A model generated the notes under the pieces. It saw only the letters and a list, made by a program, of their open reading frames with translations, had not been told where the DNA came from and did no database searches. Of a stretch of DNA of 64,000 nucleotides, positions 7,447 to 30,142 are shown piece after piece. Source of the DNA: Halegenticoccus tardaugens (GTDB lineage Archaea; Halobacteriota; Halobacteria; Halobacteriales; Haloferacaceae); assembly GCF_004116405.1 (NCBI RefSeq), contig NZ_SDIC01000011.1, forward strand, positions 62,001 to 126,000, written 5' to 3'. Both the position numbers and the translations under genes were made by a program. Every line of letters starts with the position of its first letter. The stretch's first letter is position 1.

Positions 7447-8220
7447 ATGTCATGGGACACCGTCGAACTCGACGTCGAAGACGGGGTGGCGACGCTCACC
7501 GTCGATCGACCGGACAGGCTCAACGCGCTCAACCTGGAAACGCTGGCGGCGATCGAGGAGGCGCTCGCCGCGGCCGAAGACGGGGACGCGCGGGCGCTCG
7601 TGCTGACCGGGGCGGGCGAGAAGGCGTTCGTCGCGGGCGCGGACATCGAGTACATGCGGGATCTCTCGACCCCGGAGGCGCAGGCGTACGCGGAGCTCGG
7701 CCACCGCGTCGCCGACGCCGTCGAGACGTTCCCCGCGCCGGCGATCGCCGCCGTCAACGGCTACGCGTTCGGCGGCGGCTGCGAACTCGCGCTCGCGTGC
7801 GACCTCCGCGTCGCGAGCGAACGGGCCGTCCTCGGACAGACCGAGATCGACCTCGGCATCGTCCCCGGGTGGGGCGGCACCCAGCGGCTGCCGCGGCTCG
7901 TCGGCGACGAGGTCGCCCGGCGGCTGATCTTCTTCGGCGAGCGCGTCGACGCCACCGACGCGCTCGAATACGGTCTCGTCGGCGAAGTGGTCGCGCACGA
8001 CCAGCTCGACGGGTACGTCGCCGAGATGGCCTCGGAGCTCGCTTCGAAGCCCGCGTTCGCCCTCAGGGCCGCCAAGGACGCGTTGAACGCGGCGAACGAG
8101 ACGTCGCAGGCGGCCGGCCTCGCCTACGAGCGTCGCGTCTGGAGCGGCCTGTTCGGCACGCACGACCAGCGCGAGGGGATGGCGGCGTTCGTCGAAAAGC
8201 GCGATCCGGAGTTCGAGTGA
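7447..8220 (+). CDS. Enoyl-CoA hydratase/isomerase family protein
   Basis: This is a 257-residue crotonase-fold enzyme that would hydrate trans-2-enoyl-CoA in beta-oxidation or a related acyl-CoA pathway. The oxyanion-hole and CoA-binding segments are clear: GEKAFVAGADIEYM, and AAVNGYAFGGGCELALACDL. The acidic catalytic positions are present: the second glutamate in GQTEIDLGIVPGWGGTQRLPRLVG, as in true hydratases, and the preceding ELALACD region. The length is normal. It is transcribed alone, divergently from a DUF5797 protein. Acyl-CoA dehydrogenase and methylmalonyl-CoA enzymes lie elsewhere in the window, consistent with a fatty and branched-chain acid degrading lifestyle. The precise substrate chain length cannot be told. 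Confidence 0.93.
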   Translation: MSWDTVELDVEDGVATLTVDRPDRLNALNLETLAAIEEALAAAEDGDARALVLTGAGEKAFVAGADIEYMRDLSTPEAQAYAELGHRVADAVETFPAPAIAAVNGYAFGGGCELALACDLRVASERAVLGQTEIDLGIVPGWGGTQRLPRLVGDEVARRLIFFGERVDATDALEYGLVGEVVAHDQLDGYVAEMASELASKPAFALRAAKDALNAANETSQAAGLAYERRVWSGLFGTHDQREGMAAFVEKRDPEFE

Positions 8221-8362
8221 TCGGCGGTCGTCGGGTGCACGTGCCCGGAGCCGTGCTCCCGCTCGCAGACCGCCTCGGACGGTTCCGGCCGGAGACGCGA
8301 CGACCCGAGTGTCGCGCGTCCGGGGCACTACAGGTAAGTTCTCACACGGCTAATCGTGAGGT

Positions 8363-8620
8363 ATGCCCGAGACGGTCAAGCTCAGCAGGGTCGAATCGCT
8401 GTTCGAACGCCTCGATTACCCGACCACCAGGGACGCCGCCGCCGCGCGATTCGACGACGTCACCGTCCTCTTCGCCGACGGCGAGGCGAACCTGGGTCGG
8501 CTCGTCTCCGAGACGAACAGCGACGCGTTCGACGGACCGGACGAACTCGCCGCCGAGTTGAACAACGCGCTCCCGATCGAGGCCGTCGGCGAGCCGGGGC
8601 AGTCGGAGGGCGACGCCTGA
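8363..8620 (+). CDS. DUF5789 family small protein
   Basis: This encodes 85 acidic residues starting MPETVKLSRVESLFERLDYP. The pattern of a short N-terminal helix, a beta hairpin around VTVLFADGEANLG, and a helix AFDGPDELAAELNNALP matches haloarchaeal DUF5789 proteins, which resemble the DUF2795 family. No catalytic residues are visible and no function is known to me. It lies between the hydratase gene and transcription factor S, with about 77 bases to the latter, so it may have its own promoter. Confidence 0.8.
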   Translation: MPETVKLSRVESLFERLDYPTTRDAAAARFDDVTVLFADGEANLGRLVSETNSDAFDGPDELAAELNNALPIEAVGEPGQSEGDA

Positions 8621-8664
8621 GTCGGTCACGGCGTCGGTTTCTGCGGCCCGGATCGAACCCCCGT

Positions 8665-8673
8665 AGTTAAGTA
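8665..8673 (+). promoter_or_regulatory. TATA-like element of the transcription factor S gene
   Basis: AGTTAAGTA is centred about 29 bases before the ATG at 8698, consistent with a leaderless or very short-leader transcript. Confidence 0.5.
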
Positions 8674-8697
8674 CGTCAGGCGACTGGAGCCAGTAAC

Positions 8698-9015
8698 ATG
8701 GAGTTCTGCGACGAATGCGGTTCGATGATGAAAGCCGAAGACGGCGTCTGGGTGTGCGGTAACTGCGGCTACGAGAAACCGCGCGATTCGGCGAACGAGG
8801 CGGCGATGGTGACGACCCAGGCGCAGGAGGAAAGCGAGATCATCGAATCCGGCGGCGGCTCCAGCGGTCTGCCGACCACCGACGCGCGCTGCCCCGAGTG
8901 CGGCAACGACAGGGCCTACTGGTACATGCAGCAGATCCGCTCCGCGGACGAGTCCGAGACGCGATTTTTCGTCTGTACCGAGTGCGAACACAAGTGGCGA
9001 GAGGACGACCACTGA
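8698..9015 (+). CDS. tfs: Transcription factor S (TFS)
   Basis: The 105-residue product is the archaeal homologue of TFIIS and RPB9. It would enter the secondary channel of RNA polymerase and stimulate cleavage of backtracked transcripts. Two zinc ribbons are visible: CDECG...CGNCG (residues about 4-23) and CPECG...CTECE (about 66-100). Between the last two Cys pairs lies QIRSADESETRFF, with the conserved Asp-Glu tip that supplies the catalytic acidic pair. Length and architecture are normal. The stop codon abuts the start of the next gene without a gap, so the downstream unknown gene is probably co-transcribed. Confidence 0.96.
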   Translation: MEFCDECGSMMKAEDGVWVCGNCGYEKPRDSANEAAMVTTQAQEESEIIESGGGSSGLPTTDARCPECGNDRAYWYMQQIRSADESETRFFVCTECEHKWREDDH

Positions 9016-25889: not shown

Positions 25890-26236
25890 GCCCGGTTCCT
25901 CGATCGGACGATTCGCCCGACGACGTCGCGCGCGTCCGACGCGACTTTTCGCGACGAGACGGTTCTCGAGTGACGACGCGTGAACTCGGGATCATACGCT
26001 GAATACCATGTATCGACAAATGATAATTTGACGATATTAGTACTATTTTGTCTATATTGAGCATATATCAGGCGGATGCGACCCGTCGATATATCCTTGA
26101 ACGAGGCGTTTAACCGGCCAAATCACGCGTTCGACTGACGGCAGACGTAATAACAGCCAGTTATTTTCACGGTGAAATCAGTACGACAATGTTATCAGAT
26201 TTATAACTATTATCCGCCGTGGGAGACGGAGGGACG
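25890..26236. other. AT-rich intergenic region before the membrane/ATP-grasp gene
   Basis: No gene is visible. From about 25985 to 26215 the DNA is strikingly AT-rich compared with the rest of the window and contains several possible TATA boxes and a small inverted repeat (AATAAC-AGCCA-GTTATT at 26149-26165). This may be a complex regulated promoter or a relic of inserted DNA. Confidence 0.55.
26200..26208 (+). promoter_or_regulatory. TATA-like element of the membrane/ATP-grasp gene
   Basis: TTTATAACT would place the transcript start near 26229, just upstream of the ATG at 26237. This argues against the GTG at 26219 as the start. Confidence 0.5.
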
Positions 26237-28087
26237 ATGGCAACCGAAGCCGGCACCGCAACCGGGCGAAGCCCGTCCGCGTGGCGGTCCCGAACGACCG
26301 AGCTGTACGCGAAACACTATCCGCTCGTCGGATTACTCCTGATCGTCCTGTTCTCGGGGGTTCTCCTCCGTGGGCAACTCGACATGAGCCAGCGGCCGCT
26401 GGCGCAGTACCGGCTCTTCTTCGAGCTGATGCTCGCCGGATTCGTCATCACGCTGCTCAGGAGCAAGGTGGGGCTCGTCACGTACGGCATGTTCGGCCCG
26501 ATAATCATCTCGTACATCCTCCTCGCCAGCGGGCCGCTCTGGGGGACCGTGCTCTTCGTGAACCTGTTTCTCATCGCGCTCACGACGTTCCTGATCCTCG
26601 AACCGTTCCGGCTGGGGACGGCCCACCGGATCGGCGCGCTCGTCATGACCGTCGGCGTCGCGATCACCGTCTTTCACGTGCTGGCCGACCAGCGGGTTCT
26701 CCCCGCCGCGCTCGACTCGTTGCAGGTGTTCTTCCCGGCGATCATCACCGGCTGGTACGCCGATCGATTCGCGCGCGACCTCTCGGAACGGGGGTGGCGA
26801 GCGCCGGCGATCCGGTTCGTCTGGACGCTCGTCGCGATACTCGTGGCGTACGCGATCCTGTCGCGCGACGCGCTCGTGAGCTGGTTCGTCCACACCCCGG
26901 AGGCGTGGGCCGCGATCATCGGGCTCAACGTCTGGCTCGGCACGACCGGCGCGATTCGGGTGAAAGAGTACCTCCGTTTTTCGAACGTCTTCCGGGGCTC
27001 GCCGTGGAGCGCAGCCCTGAGCGCCGCGGAGACCTCGCTGCACAACGCGAAGGCGCGCGCGGTCAACGCGCTCGGCGGTTCCGCGTCGTACCGCAATGGG
27101 AGCGACGTGCTCGCGATGAACCGCCGAAACGCGTACATCAAACGGTACAACCCGACGCACCTCTTCCCGGAACTCGACAAGGCGTCGATGAAGCGCGCCT
27201 TCCACGGGACGGGCGTCTCGACGCCGGACACCTACCTCCTCGTCGAGCGGCTCGGGCAGATCGGGCGGGCGGAGGCGCTGTTCGACGCCCGCGACGAGTT
27301 CGTCATCAAGCCCGACAGCGGATACGGCGGCGAGGGGATCGTCGTCGTCACCGGACGCACCGACGACGGCGAACGGTTCGAAACCTCGAAGGGCGAGCGG
27401 ACGCCCGAGCAACTGCTCGCCCACGTCCGCTCCGTCGTCGAGGGGCACTACTCCCCGATGGGGCTCGACGGCGTCGCGATCGTCGAGGAGCTCGTCCACC
27501 CCGACGACTTCCTCCGCTCCCGCGCGGGGCAGGGCGTCCCGGACATCCGCGTGATGGTGTTCAAGGGCTTCCCGATCATGGCGATGACGCGGCTGCCGAC
27601 CGAGGAGTCCGACGGCGCGGCGAACCTCCACATGGGGGCGATCGGGGTCGGGCTGACCGTCGCCGAGGGGCGGGCGCTCGGCGGCTACCGGAGCACCAAC
27701 CAGTGGCACGACGAACACCCCGACACGGGGGCGGACCTGCGCGACTTCACCGTCCCGAACTGGGACGAGGTCCTCGCCACCGCCGTCCACGCCGCGGAGG
27801 TCTCCCGGCTCGGGTACGCCGGCGTCGACGTTGTCGTGGACGAGGAGAAGGGGCCGGTCGTCCTCGAAGTGAACGCCCGCCCCGGGCTGGGAATCCAGAA
27901 CTCGACGTTCGACGGGCTGCTCAGGCGGCTCGATTTCGTCGAATCGCTGCCCGACGACTACGACCTGAAGCCGCCATCGGAGAAGATTCGGCTCGCGAGG
28001 CGATGGGACGAAGCGGACTGGGAGACGGACGCGACGGGGACGGACGCGATGGAACCGAAAACGAGGGGAAGCGAGCCGGATGAATAG
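26237..28087 (+). CDS. Seven-TM-type membrane domain fused to an ATP-grasp ligase
   Basis: The 616-residue product has about seven hydrophobic segments in residues 28-240, then a cytoplasmic ATP-grasp domain from about 290 to 580. The ligase part opens with VLAMNRRNAYIKRYNPTHLF, then shows FVIKPDSGYGGEGIVVV (nucleotide loop), VPDIRVMVFKGFPIMAMTRL and VVLEVNARPGLGIQNS (metal ligands). This matches the alpha-L-glutamate ligase-like group related to RimK (PF14397 type). In bacteria that ligase is usually a separate gene next to an inactive transglutaminase with seven membrane helices; here the membrane part and the ligase are one chain and the transglutaminase part is absent. It should ligate an amino acid to some acceptor at the membrane, but no substrate is known. 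A small membrane protein gene overlaps its 3' end. Confidence 0.88.
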   Translation: MATEAGTATGRSPSAWRSRTTELYAKHYPLVGLLLIVLFSGVLLRGQLDMSQRPLAQYRLFFELMLAGFVITLLRSKVGLVTYGMFGPIIISYILLASGPLWGTVLFVNLFLIALTTFLILEPFRLGTAHRIGALVMTVGVAITVFHVLADQRVLPAALDSLQVFFPAIITGWYADRFARDLSERGWRAPAIRFVWTLVAILVAYAILSRDALVSWFVHTPEAWAAIIGLNVWLGTTGAIRVKEYLRFSNVFRGSPWSAALSAAETSLHNAKARAVNALGGSASYRNGSDVLAMNRRNAYIKRYNPTHLFPELDKASMKRAFHGTGVSTPDTYLLVERLGQIGRAEALFDARDEFVIKPDSGYGGEGIVVVTGRTDDGERFETSKGERTPEQLLAHVRSVVEGHYSPMGLDGVAIVEELVHPDDFLRSRAGQGVPDIRVMVFKGFPIMAMTRLPTEESDGAANLHMGAIGVGLTVAEGRALGGYRSTNQWHDEHPDTGADLRDFTVPNWDEVLATAVHAAEVSRLGYAGVDVVVDEEKGPVVLEVNARPGLGIQNSTFDGLLRRLDFVESLPDDYDLKPPSEKIRLARRWDEADWETDATGTDAMEPKTRGSEPDE

Positions 28088-28319
28088 AGCGACGCTCGGA
28101 TCGCTGTTCGTCCTCGGCGGACTCCTTCCGGGGTTGCTGTTCGTCGGCACGCTGGACGCGCGAGTCCCCGCGCCGCCGGTTCTCGGACGCTATCTCCCGG
28201 CGGACGGCGGCGCAATCGGCGCGCCCGAACTGCTCTTCGTCGCGATCCCGGTCGCGTTCGTGGTCTTCGTGGTGTACGAGTCGCTCGGCCACTACCGGAA
28301 CCGGAAACCGCCGTCCTGA
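28080..28319 (+). CDS. Two-helix small membrane protein
   Basis: The 79-residue product overlaps the ligase gene by eight bases, so both are probably translated together. Two hydrophobic helices are evident (LGSLFVLGGLLPGLLFVGTL and LLFVAIPVAFVVFVVYESLG), joined by a Pro-rich loop and followed by a short basic tail. I do not recognise a family. Its position suggests it could be a partner or assembly subunit for the membrane-bound ligase, which is inference. Confidence 0.8.
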   Translation: MNRATLGSLFVLGGLLPGLLFVGTLDARVPAPPVLGRYLPADGGAIGAPELLFVAIPVAFVVFVVYESLGHYRNRKPPS

Positions 28320-28411: not shown

Positions 28412-30142
28412 ATGCGACTGGAGGAGTACTGGGGCGTCGGACCGAAGACGAGCGAGCGTCTCCGGGAGTCGCTCGGCGCGGAGCGGGCGGTCGAGGCGAT
28501 CGAATCGGCCGACGTCCGCGCGCTCACGGAGGCCGGCATTTCGCGCGGCCGGGCGACGCGCATCCTCCGCCGGGCGAACGGCGGAGACGGGATGGCGATG
28601 CTCGGCACGCGGGACGCGCGGAACGTCTACGACGAGCTGCTCTCGCGCGCCGCGTCGCACGCGGTCACGCGCCACGCGGCCGACCGGATCCGGGTGTTGA
28701 CGCCGCTTTCGGACCGCGACGAGGCGGACGAGCGCCTCGACGAGGTGCTCGACGCGCGGGACGCGTGGCGAGCCCTCGACGACGACGCCCGCGAAGCCGT
28801 CCGCGACGCGTTCGAGACCTACGACGAGGCGGGGGGCACCGAACGGGCGTCGGTCCGCGCCGCGCTGGCGCTCCGCGACGCCGGCCTCGGCGAGGAGTTC
28901 GACGCGCTCTACGGCCTCGACGACGACGCCCTCCGCGAGGCGCTCCGCGCGCTGGGGCGCGTGACCGACGGATCGGTCGGGGCGGGGGCGGACGAACGGC
29001 TCGACCGACTCCGAAGTCGGCTCGAAGACGCACGGCGGCTCGAACGCGGCGCGTTCGACGTGCTCGACGAGGTCCGAGACGCCGGGGTTCGGAGCCTCGA
29101 AGATTTCGAGGGGGCCGTCGTCGAGTACGTCGCCCGCGAGACGGACCTCACCCGCGACGACGTCCGGGCGGCCGCGGCCGACGACGTCGTGGACGCGGCG
29201 GACTTCGTGAGCGCGACCCTCAGGGCGCTCGCCGCCGACCTCCAATCGCGCGCCGCCGACCGTGAGGCGACGGTGGCGGCCGAACTGGAGGCGTCGATCG
29301 AGGCGGCCAGATCGGACGTCGACGCCGCCGTCGCGGCCGTCGACGAGGTCGCCTTCGTCCTCTCGCTCGCTCGCTTCACCGACGCGTACGACCTCTCCCG
29401 ACCGGAACTCGTCGAGGACGGTCTCGCCGTCGAGGGGGCGCGGAACCTCTCGCTGGACGGGGCGGTCCAGCCGATCACTTACGCAGTCGGCGACCACTCT
29501 CTCGGCGTCGGCGAACTCCCGTCCGGCGACCGCGTGACGGTCCTCACCGGCGCGAACTCCGGCGGCAAGACGACCCTGCTCGAAACGCTCTGTCAGGTGA
29601 CGCTGCTCGCCTCGATGGGGCTGCCCGTCCCCGCCGACCGCGCGCAGGTCGGCCGCTTCGACGCGGTAGTGTTCCACCGTCGACACGCGAGCTTCAACGC
29701 CGGCGTGCTCGAATCGACGCTGCGCTCCATTGTCCCCCCGCTGACCGGCGAGGGCCGGGCGCTCATGCTCGTCGACGAGTTCGAAGCCATCACGGAACCG
29801 GGTCGGGCCGCCGACCTGCTCAACGGGCTGGTCCAGTTGACGGTCGATCGGGGGGCGCTCGGGGTGTACGTCACGCACCTCGCGGACGACCTCAGCCCGC
29901 TGCCGTCGCAGGCGCGGACCGACGGCATCTTCGCGGAGGGACTGACGCAGGAACTCGAACTCCGGGTGGACTACCAGCCCCGGTTCGGGACCGTCGGAAA
30001 GTCGACGCCCGAGTTCATCGTTTCGCGACTCGTCGCCAACGCCGGGAGCAGGGCCGAACGCGGCGGGTTCGAGGCGCTGGCGGCGGCCGTCGGCGAGGAG
30101 GCCGTCCAGCGAACCCTGTCGGACGCGCGGTGGCGATCGTAG
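28412..30142 (+). CDS. MutS-like ATPase with N-terminal helix-hairpin-helix
   Basis: This 576-residue protein belongs to the MutS superfamily of DNA-binding ABC-type ATPases. The N-terminus EYWGVGPKTSERLRESLGAE is a helix-hairpin-helix DNA-binding motif. A helical lever/clamp region follows, then the ATPase: Walker A GANSGGKTTLLETLCQ (residues 380-395), Walker B LMLVDEFEAI (451-460) and ALGVYVTHLADDL with the conserved His. The mismatch-recognition domain and its Phe-x-Glu motif are absent, so it is not a classical mismatch sensor. Haloarchaea carry several such paralogues. A role in recombination or branched-DNA processing is likely but inferred. It is monocistronic. Confidence 0.9.
   Translation: MRLEEYWGVGPKTSERLRESLGAERAVEAIESADVRALTEAGISRGRATRILRRANGGDGMAMLGTRDARNVYDELLSRAASHAVTRHAADRIRVLTPLSDRDEADERLDEVLDARDAWRALDDDAREAVRDAFETYDEAGGTERASVRAALALRDAGLGEEFDALYGLDDDALREALRALGRVTDGSVGAGADERLDRLRSRLEDARRLERGAFDVLDEVRDAGVRSLEDFEGAVVEYVARETDLTRDDVRAAAADDVVDAADFVSATLRALAADLQSRAADREATVAAELEASIEAARSDVDAAVAAVDEVAFVLSLARFTDAYDLSRPELVEDGLAVEGARNLSLDGAVQPITYAVGDHSLGVGELPSGDRVTVLTGANSGGKTTLLETLCQVTLLASMGLPVPADRAQVGRFDAVVFHRRHASFNAGVLESTLRSIVPPLTGEGRALMLVDEFEAITEPGRAADLLNGLVQLTVDRGALGVYVTHLADDLSPLPSQARTDGIFAEGLTQELELRVDYQPRFGTVGKSTPEFIVSRLVANAGSRAERGGFEALAAAVGEEAVQRTLSDARWRS

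Follow-up and report, generated by a model that had tools for sequence, protein, structure and literature searches.

A laterally mobile haloarchaeal gene pair with an apparent fusion of RloB-type membrane helices to an RloC-type ATP-grasp ligase

In the 64,000-nucleotide stretch of Halegenticoccus tardaugens DNA analysed here (the window), one open reading frame joins membrane helices to an ATP-grasp ligase and is followed by a very small membrane gene. The locus thus raised the question of whether it is a compact archaeal form of a bacterial system, as proposed in the initial annotation, and of what such a system could make.

The presence of the membrane part and the ligase in one polypeptide was borne out by Pfam searches, in which PF14402 (7TM_transglut) and PF14397 (ATPgrasp_ST) were both detected in the same 616-aa ORF (Table 1). 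The former scored 66.8 bits against a curated cut-off of 25 and covered model positions 55-246 of 248, and the latter was matched over its full length with 212.7 bits against a cut-off of 31.4. Both domains are said to come from a 2009 amidoligase paper by Iyer. The transglutaminase part had been described as missing, and indeed a Pfam search of the fused protein for the inactive transglutaminase domain PF14400 gave no match. An alignment of relatives revealed that the 7TM part has strictly conserved motifs of its own (R75, FGP, GTAHR, FFP..T.W.A.R and RF). The ATG at 26237, preceded by a probable archaeal promoter and a Shine-Dalgarno-like site, was taken as the start of the gene over an in-frame GTG at 26219, which was rejected because it lies too close to the TATA-like box at 26200.

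Table 1. Positions of the fused gene, its parts, its small partner and the block shared between two other genomes (window positions, unless a locus label is given)
Feature	Position	Strand	Basis or remark
TATA-like TTTATA (26200-26205) and Shine-Dalgarno-like GGAGG	26200..26232	+	read from sequence; probable
Fused 7TM / ATP-grasp ligase gene, 616 aa	26237..28087	+	single ORF, Pfam
First helix, residues 13-47	26273..26377	+	AlphaFold model
Short loop, residues 48-53	26378..26395	+	stands where bacterial RloB has the inactive transglutaminase domain
7TM_transglut domain PF14402, residues 57-250	26405..26986	+	Pfam, E 2.6e-18
Linker from membrane domain to ligase, 41 aa (14-45 aa in relatives)	26984..27106	+	
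RimK-like ATP-grasp ligase domain PF14397, residues 296-569	27122..27943	+	Pfam, E 7.7e-63
Two-helix membrane partner, 79 aa	28080..28319	+	two hydrophobic segments; conserved beside the ligase
Shared 2,384-bp block	L043:8585-10968 and L044:8960-11343	+	loci turned; fused gene on +

The bacterial halves had been expected to lie in separate neighbouring genes. The order retropepsin, inactive transglutaminase-7TM protein and ligase was found in Legionella adelaidensis and Aeromonas caviae, with genes that abut or overlap. This arrangement is that of rloABC, an osmotic-stress operon of Pseudomonas aeruginosa (mBio 2025; PMC12239564). In the Aeromonas RloB (512 residues), PF14400 spans residues 24-182 and precedes the same membrane helices. 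Since the bacterial operons keep the same gene order, with abutting or overlapping genes, domain comparison identifies the archaeal protein as the C-terminal membrane part of RloB fused to RloC. The description as a compact archaeal form thus holds, because what is one chain here is encoded by neighbouring genes in the same order in bacteria. The archaeal form has the rloABC arrangement of a 7TM module immediately followed by a ligase module, and shares with RloB-RloC of P. aeruginosa (PMC12239564) the PF14402 and PF14397 modules, their order and the combination of a membrane part with a cytosolic ligase. It differs in being a single polypeptide without the transglutaminase ectodomain and without an adjacent RloA retropepsin, and in its additional two-helix partner, which was not found in the bacterial loci checked. 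The NCBIfam model for bacterial alpha-L-glutamate ligase-like, RloC-like proteins (TIGR02291) was matched almost over its full length, but the score of 256.8 bits fell short of the cut-off, 314.2, and the model for RloB (NF052267) gave 34.9 bits against a cut-off of 900, which does not reach family level. Being below both cut-offs, the fused protein is therefore regarded as a divergent homologue and not as an equivalog.

In Pseudomonas, osmotic tolerance, cell shape, biofilm and antibiotic response are influenced by this operon. Its secreted RloA cuts runs of at least 8 glutamates, and an RloA-triple mutant, which dies under hypo-osmotic conditions, is rescued when rloB or rloC is lost (PMC12239564). 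Because of the cleavage of glutamate runs and this rescue, the simplest reading is that RloBC would put a polyglutamate-like product outside the cytoplasm, which RloA would trim. A PF05618 search of the cassette-bearing genomes revealed no stand-alone retropepsin RloA, so the polyglutamate clue comes from the bacterial system. The matches obtained in 22 cassette genomes (the own genome and 21 others) all lay in frames at least 450 codons long; two of these frames were read throughout and turned out to be RimK-retropepsin fusions, and such matches occur in cassette-free genomes too. RloB was reported to be 96% proteobacterial and archaea are not mentioned in the text of that paper (PMC12239564); for this reason, the archaeal branch appears to be undescribed in the literature searched.

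An AlphaFold model of the fused protein built with 21 homologues (pLDDT 79.7, pTM 0.73) predicted a helix at residues 13-47, seven membrane helices between 54 and 236 (54-78, 86-98, 100-124, 128-151, 162-185, 188-208 and 222-236) and then the ligase, with residues 48-53 as the sole connection from the first helix to the 7TM domain. From its position, helix 13-47 probably corresponds to the helix that anchors bacterial RloB at its N-terminus, and the archaeal protein looks as if the anchor helix had been kept and the ectodomain lost. When the whole model was compared with the PDB by Foldseek, the nearest fold was that of RimK, a poly-alpha-glutamate synthetase (5zct, E 2.3e-8), and further ligases of the RimK and LysX/ArgX types came next. 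The best 50 matches all fell on the ligase and none on the membrane part, so a transport role finds no support in this structural comparison. D531, E544 and N546, as well as lysines K315 and K358, were invariant in an alignment of 21 relatives, and the GVD and EVN motifs of the fused ligase fell on the same positions in an alignment with RimK. In RimK, these positions hold the metal ligands; K315 and K358 are taken as the ATP lysines. Given these invariant residues and their positions in RimK, the ligase is probably active, and an ATP-dependent ligation would follow from fold and conserved residues as its type of reaction. The literature searched contained no measured substrate for any ligase of this subfamily.

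The small ORF had been claimed to overlap the 3' end of the ligase gene by eight bases, and its overlap with the ligase stop indeed amounts to exactly 8 bases, ATGAATAG. No family was matched by its product in Pfam or NCBIfam. Nevertheless, the small gene lies directly behind the fused gene in 21 of the 22 intact loci, with overlaps of 1 to 11 bases, and it evolves under purifying selection, with dN/dS values of about 0.06-0.43 in ten pairwise comparisons, although the identity of its product to the window copy drops to about 17-20% across Halobacteria, where the pattern F...P..F..F is kept. This conservation and the low dN/dS argue against a chance ORF. A profile of the small protein gave 23 strong matches over 394 Halobacteria genomes, all of them at the fused locus and two beside broken ligases, whereas no strong orphan copy was found away from it; a 24th match (4e-5), in an unrelated frame, was treated as due to chance. 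The pairing of both genes is thus near-obligate. The same profile found nothing at the split-type loci. In one locus (L051:10499-11248), the C-terminus of the two-helix protein bears two DUF1508 domains.

The exception among the intact loci is L045 (genome G353), which has no separate small gene and whose ligase protein bears an in-frame C-terminal hydrophobic tail. Outside the family, this tail was what the small-protein profile matched best, although weakly (E 3.5e-4), and it is likely a natural fusion of the small protein in which the second helix is covered best. A MAFFT alignment of the separate small proteins onto the tail was discarded because it put them on the wrong helices, and a model of this triple fusion, with the tail modelled without the separate small proteins, placed the tail with low confidence. 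Conservation of the small gene beside the ligase, which the initial annotation had made a point to be checked over Halobacteria, therefore stands in 21 of the 22 loci as a gene and in the other as a fused tail.

The search of the 394 Halobacteria genomes for the fused gene at E 1e-10 gave matches in 30 genomes, five of which were weak, ligase-only matches (31-33% identity), leaving the fused gene or a remnant of it in 25 of 394. Four broken loci were examined together with the 22 intact ones, of which 21, counting that of the own genome, come from the sample and one from a named record; all 22 are fused. In a ligase-domain tree, the 22 fused forms grouped in one clade (100/100) that excluded three split homologues, so that a single fusion event is likely, as far as a tree with few outgroups and long branches indicates. 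The window gene groups next to those of Natrialbaceae, yet its genome belongs to another family, which suggests that it reached its genome by transfer. Beyond the small gene, no neighbour of the pair was shared across genera in the neighbourhood survey, and no viral relative was confirmed in IMG/VR.

Signs of transfer also came from a plasmid of Halobacterium sp. DL1 and a chromosome from another family, which share a block with just the two genes that is 99.9% identical (Table 1). The block runs from 70 bases before the ATG to 281 bases past the small gene, with two positions that differ, and its flanks show no match between both genomes. Because it is near-identical in two families while the flanks are unrelated, sequence comparison reveals the pair as a complete mobile unit transferred as a cassette. 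The 281-bp tail behind the small gene has short stretches in common with the flanks of neighbouring transposase genes in L043, a likeness that may explain the mobility. Broken copies of the fused gene were also detected (L008:7830-8726, L057:9288-10933 and L058:9000-10560, turned), some of them with the small gene still readable. As the cassette is patchily distributed and several copies have decayed, it is dispensable. In L049:9011-11259 (turned; genome G121), the linker contains a tandem duplication of 92 bp, by which the fused gene is split again into two complete ORFs, one for the membrane part and one, starting at an ATG of its own, for the ligase; this would be either a natural un-fusion or a recent break.

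The reading that we tentatively prefer, and regard as a serious possibility, is a laterally mobile haloarchaeal version of RloB-RloC, in which a membrane-tethered ligase makes an acidic chain and the membrane part exports or anchors it. The cytosolic ATP-grasp domain would turn a carboxylate into an acyl phosphate, which then reacts with an amino group; most likely, as with RimK, L-glutamate would be added to an oligopeptide, and the product would be an acidic chain, perhaps polyglutamate. The membrane half, consisting of one anchor helix and seven helices and completed by the two-helix partner, would hold the ligase at the membrane and export or anchor the acidic product at the cell surface. 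The partner would help the membrane part, perhaps through physical contact, and a role in envelope or osmotic physiology could be expected. A broader proposal, possible but somewhat unlikely, is that the pair is a self-contained mobile two-gene synthase-exporter of an amino-acid polymer on the haloarchaeal surface, the 7TM-ligase being the working core of the Rlo system and the transglutaminase and retropepsin replaceable parts.

The same architecture could instead belong to a membrane-tethered protein modifier that attaches glutamate, or a different residue, to some protein of the cytosol or the membrane, with helices that only place the enzyme at the membrane or sense the osmotic or membrane state. 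RimK, the nearest solved fold, does modify a protein C-terminus, that of ribosomal protein S6, and post-translationally polyglutamylated proteins were also considered as RloA substrates by the authors of the Pseudomonas study (PMC12239564). However, we find this rather unlikely, as the conserved 7TM motifs exceed the needs of an anchor and a cassette that crosses families without other genes would require its target protein in each recipient. Decoration of an envelope glycan or lipid, in which the membrane domain would flip a sugar or lipid intermediate that has received an amino acid from the ligase, is suggested by the name of PF14397 (sugar-transfer associated ATP-grasp), but becomes improbable given that the small gene is the sole neighbour conserved across genera, and hence no glycan or lipid pathway travels with the cassette.

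The near-obligate pairing and translational overlap, the lengthening of a protein C-terminus by RimK and a small-protein tail, RERKPPS, that is almost invariant in the Natrialbaceae group would also fit a small protein that is itself the substrate, its cytosolic C-terminus being extended by the ligase. This is very improbable in view of tails that vary among clades (YAGQG, LGYA, GASRSR and others) or bear the two DUF1508 domains, and of the L045 tail fused to the ligase. Finally, almost no weight is left for N-terminal helices unrelated to the bacterial 7TM domain and an incidental small ORF. Identity between bacterial and archaeal sequences is low and the small gene lacks a Pfam or NCBIfam match, but the first half of this alternative is already refuted by PF14402 (E 2.6e-18, and 4.9e-20 to 5.4e-23 in two divergent relatives), which relates these helices to the seven-TM domain, and the second half by the co-occurrence with the ligase and the purifying selection.

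With regard to the preferred RloB-RloC version, the analysis goes beyond the initial annotation in naming the bacterial system together with its phenotype (RloABC, PMC12239564) and in revealing the mobility of the archaeal pair as a cassette. In the fused form, the bacterial Rlo system is cut down to one enzyme and a 79-residue partner, with no peptidoglycan, transglutaminase or protease interfering. Since a 2-kb cassette suffices to transfer these two genes to a host without them, such as Haloferax volcanii, where a control search for PF14402 gave no match, the question of the product is directly testable.

Other systems share parts of this design. On an archaeal contig (L070:7405-9738, genome G655), a 7TM protein is followed by a ligase 6 bases downstream, as two genes and without a detected small partner, unlike the archaeal fusion; a thermosome gene lies on the same contig. 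The N-terminal part of this 7TM protein, of about 220 aa, has no PF14400 match and contains a long acidic Asp-Thr/Asp-Ser repeat. The missing transglutaminase is thus not unique to the fused form, as judged from this other N-terminal part, and because the L070, bacterial and fused forms differ in the part outside, the membrane helices and the ligase are the constant core. RimK shares with the fused ligase the ATP-grasp fold and metal-binding positions, but is itself soluble. The window genome also encodes two RimK-like ligases fused to a retropepsin domain (L059:1450-2844, - strand; L060:139-1728, + strand), which lack a membrane part; in the bacterial RimK/RimB system, ligase and retropepsin are separate proteins. 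The poly-gamma-glutamate synthase PgsB-PgsC (CapBC) combines a cytosolic amide ligase with a membrane protein and, in some bacteria, a tiny membrane peptide. The ligase fold of PgsB/CapB is of the Mur-ligase type and thus different, so that the likeness is an analogy in the way of working only. CapC is absent from the window genome and its distribution does not track the cassette.

Regarding the surroundings of the cassette, the next gene downstream in the window (28412-30142) encodes a helix-hairpin-helix protein with a weak match to MutS domain V, and is not a conserved neighbour of the cassette. A secreted protein of the HEYVH peptidase type follows the cassette in only two loci, which are related to each other but come from different families, with an HEYVH motif in L045:11286-12686 and a weak M61 match in L042:10586-12136 (both turned); this follower is perhaps a stand-in for the bacterial protease RloA. 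In L045, a second, truncated ligase-like ORF (7884-8810, turned) was also found just upstream of the fused gene.
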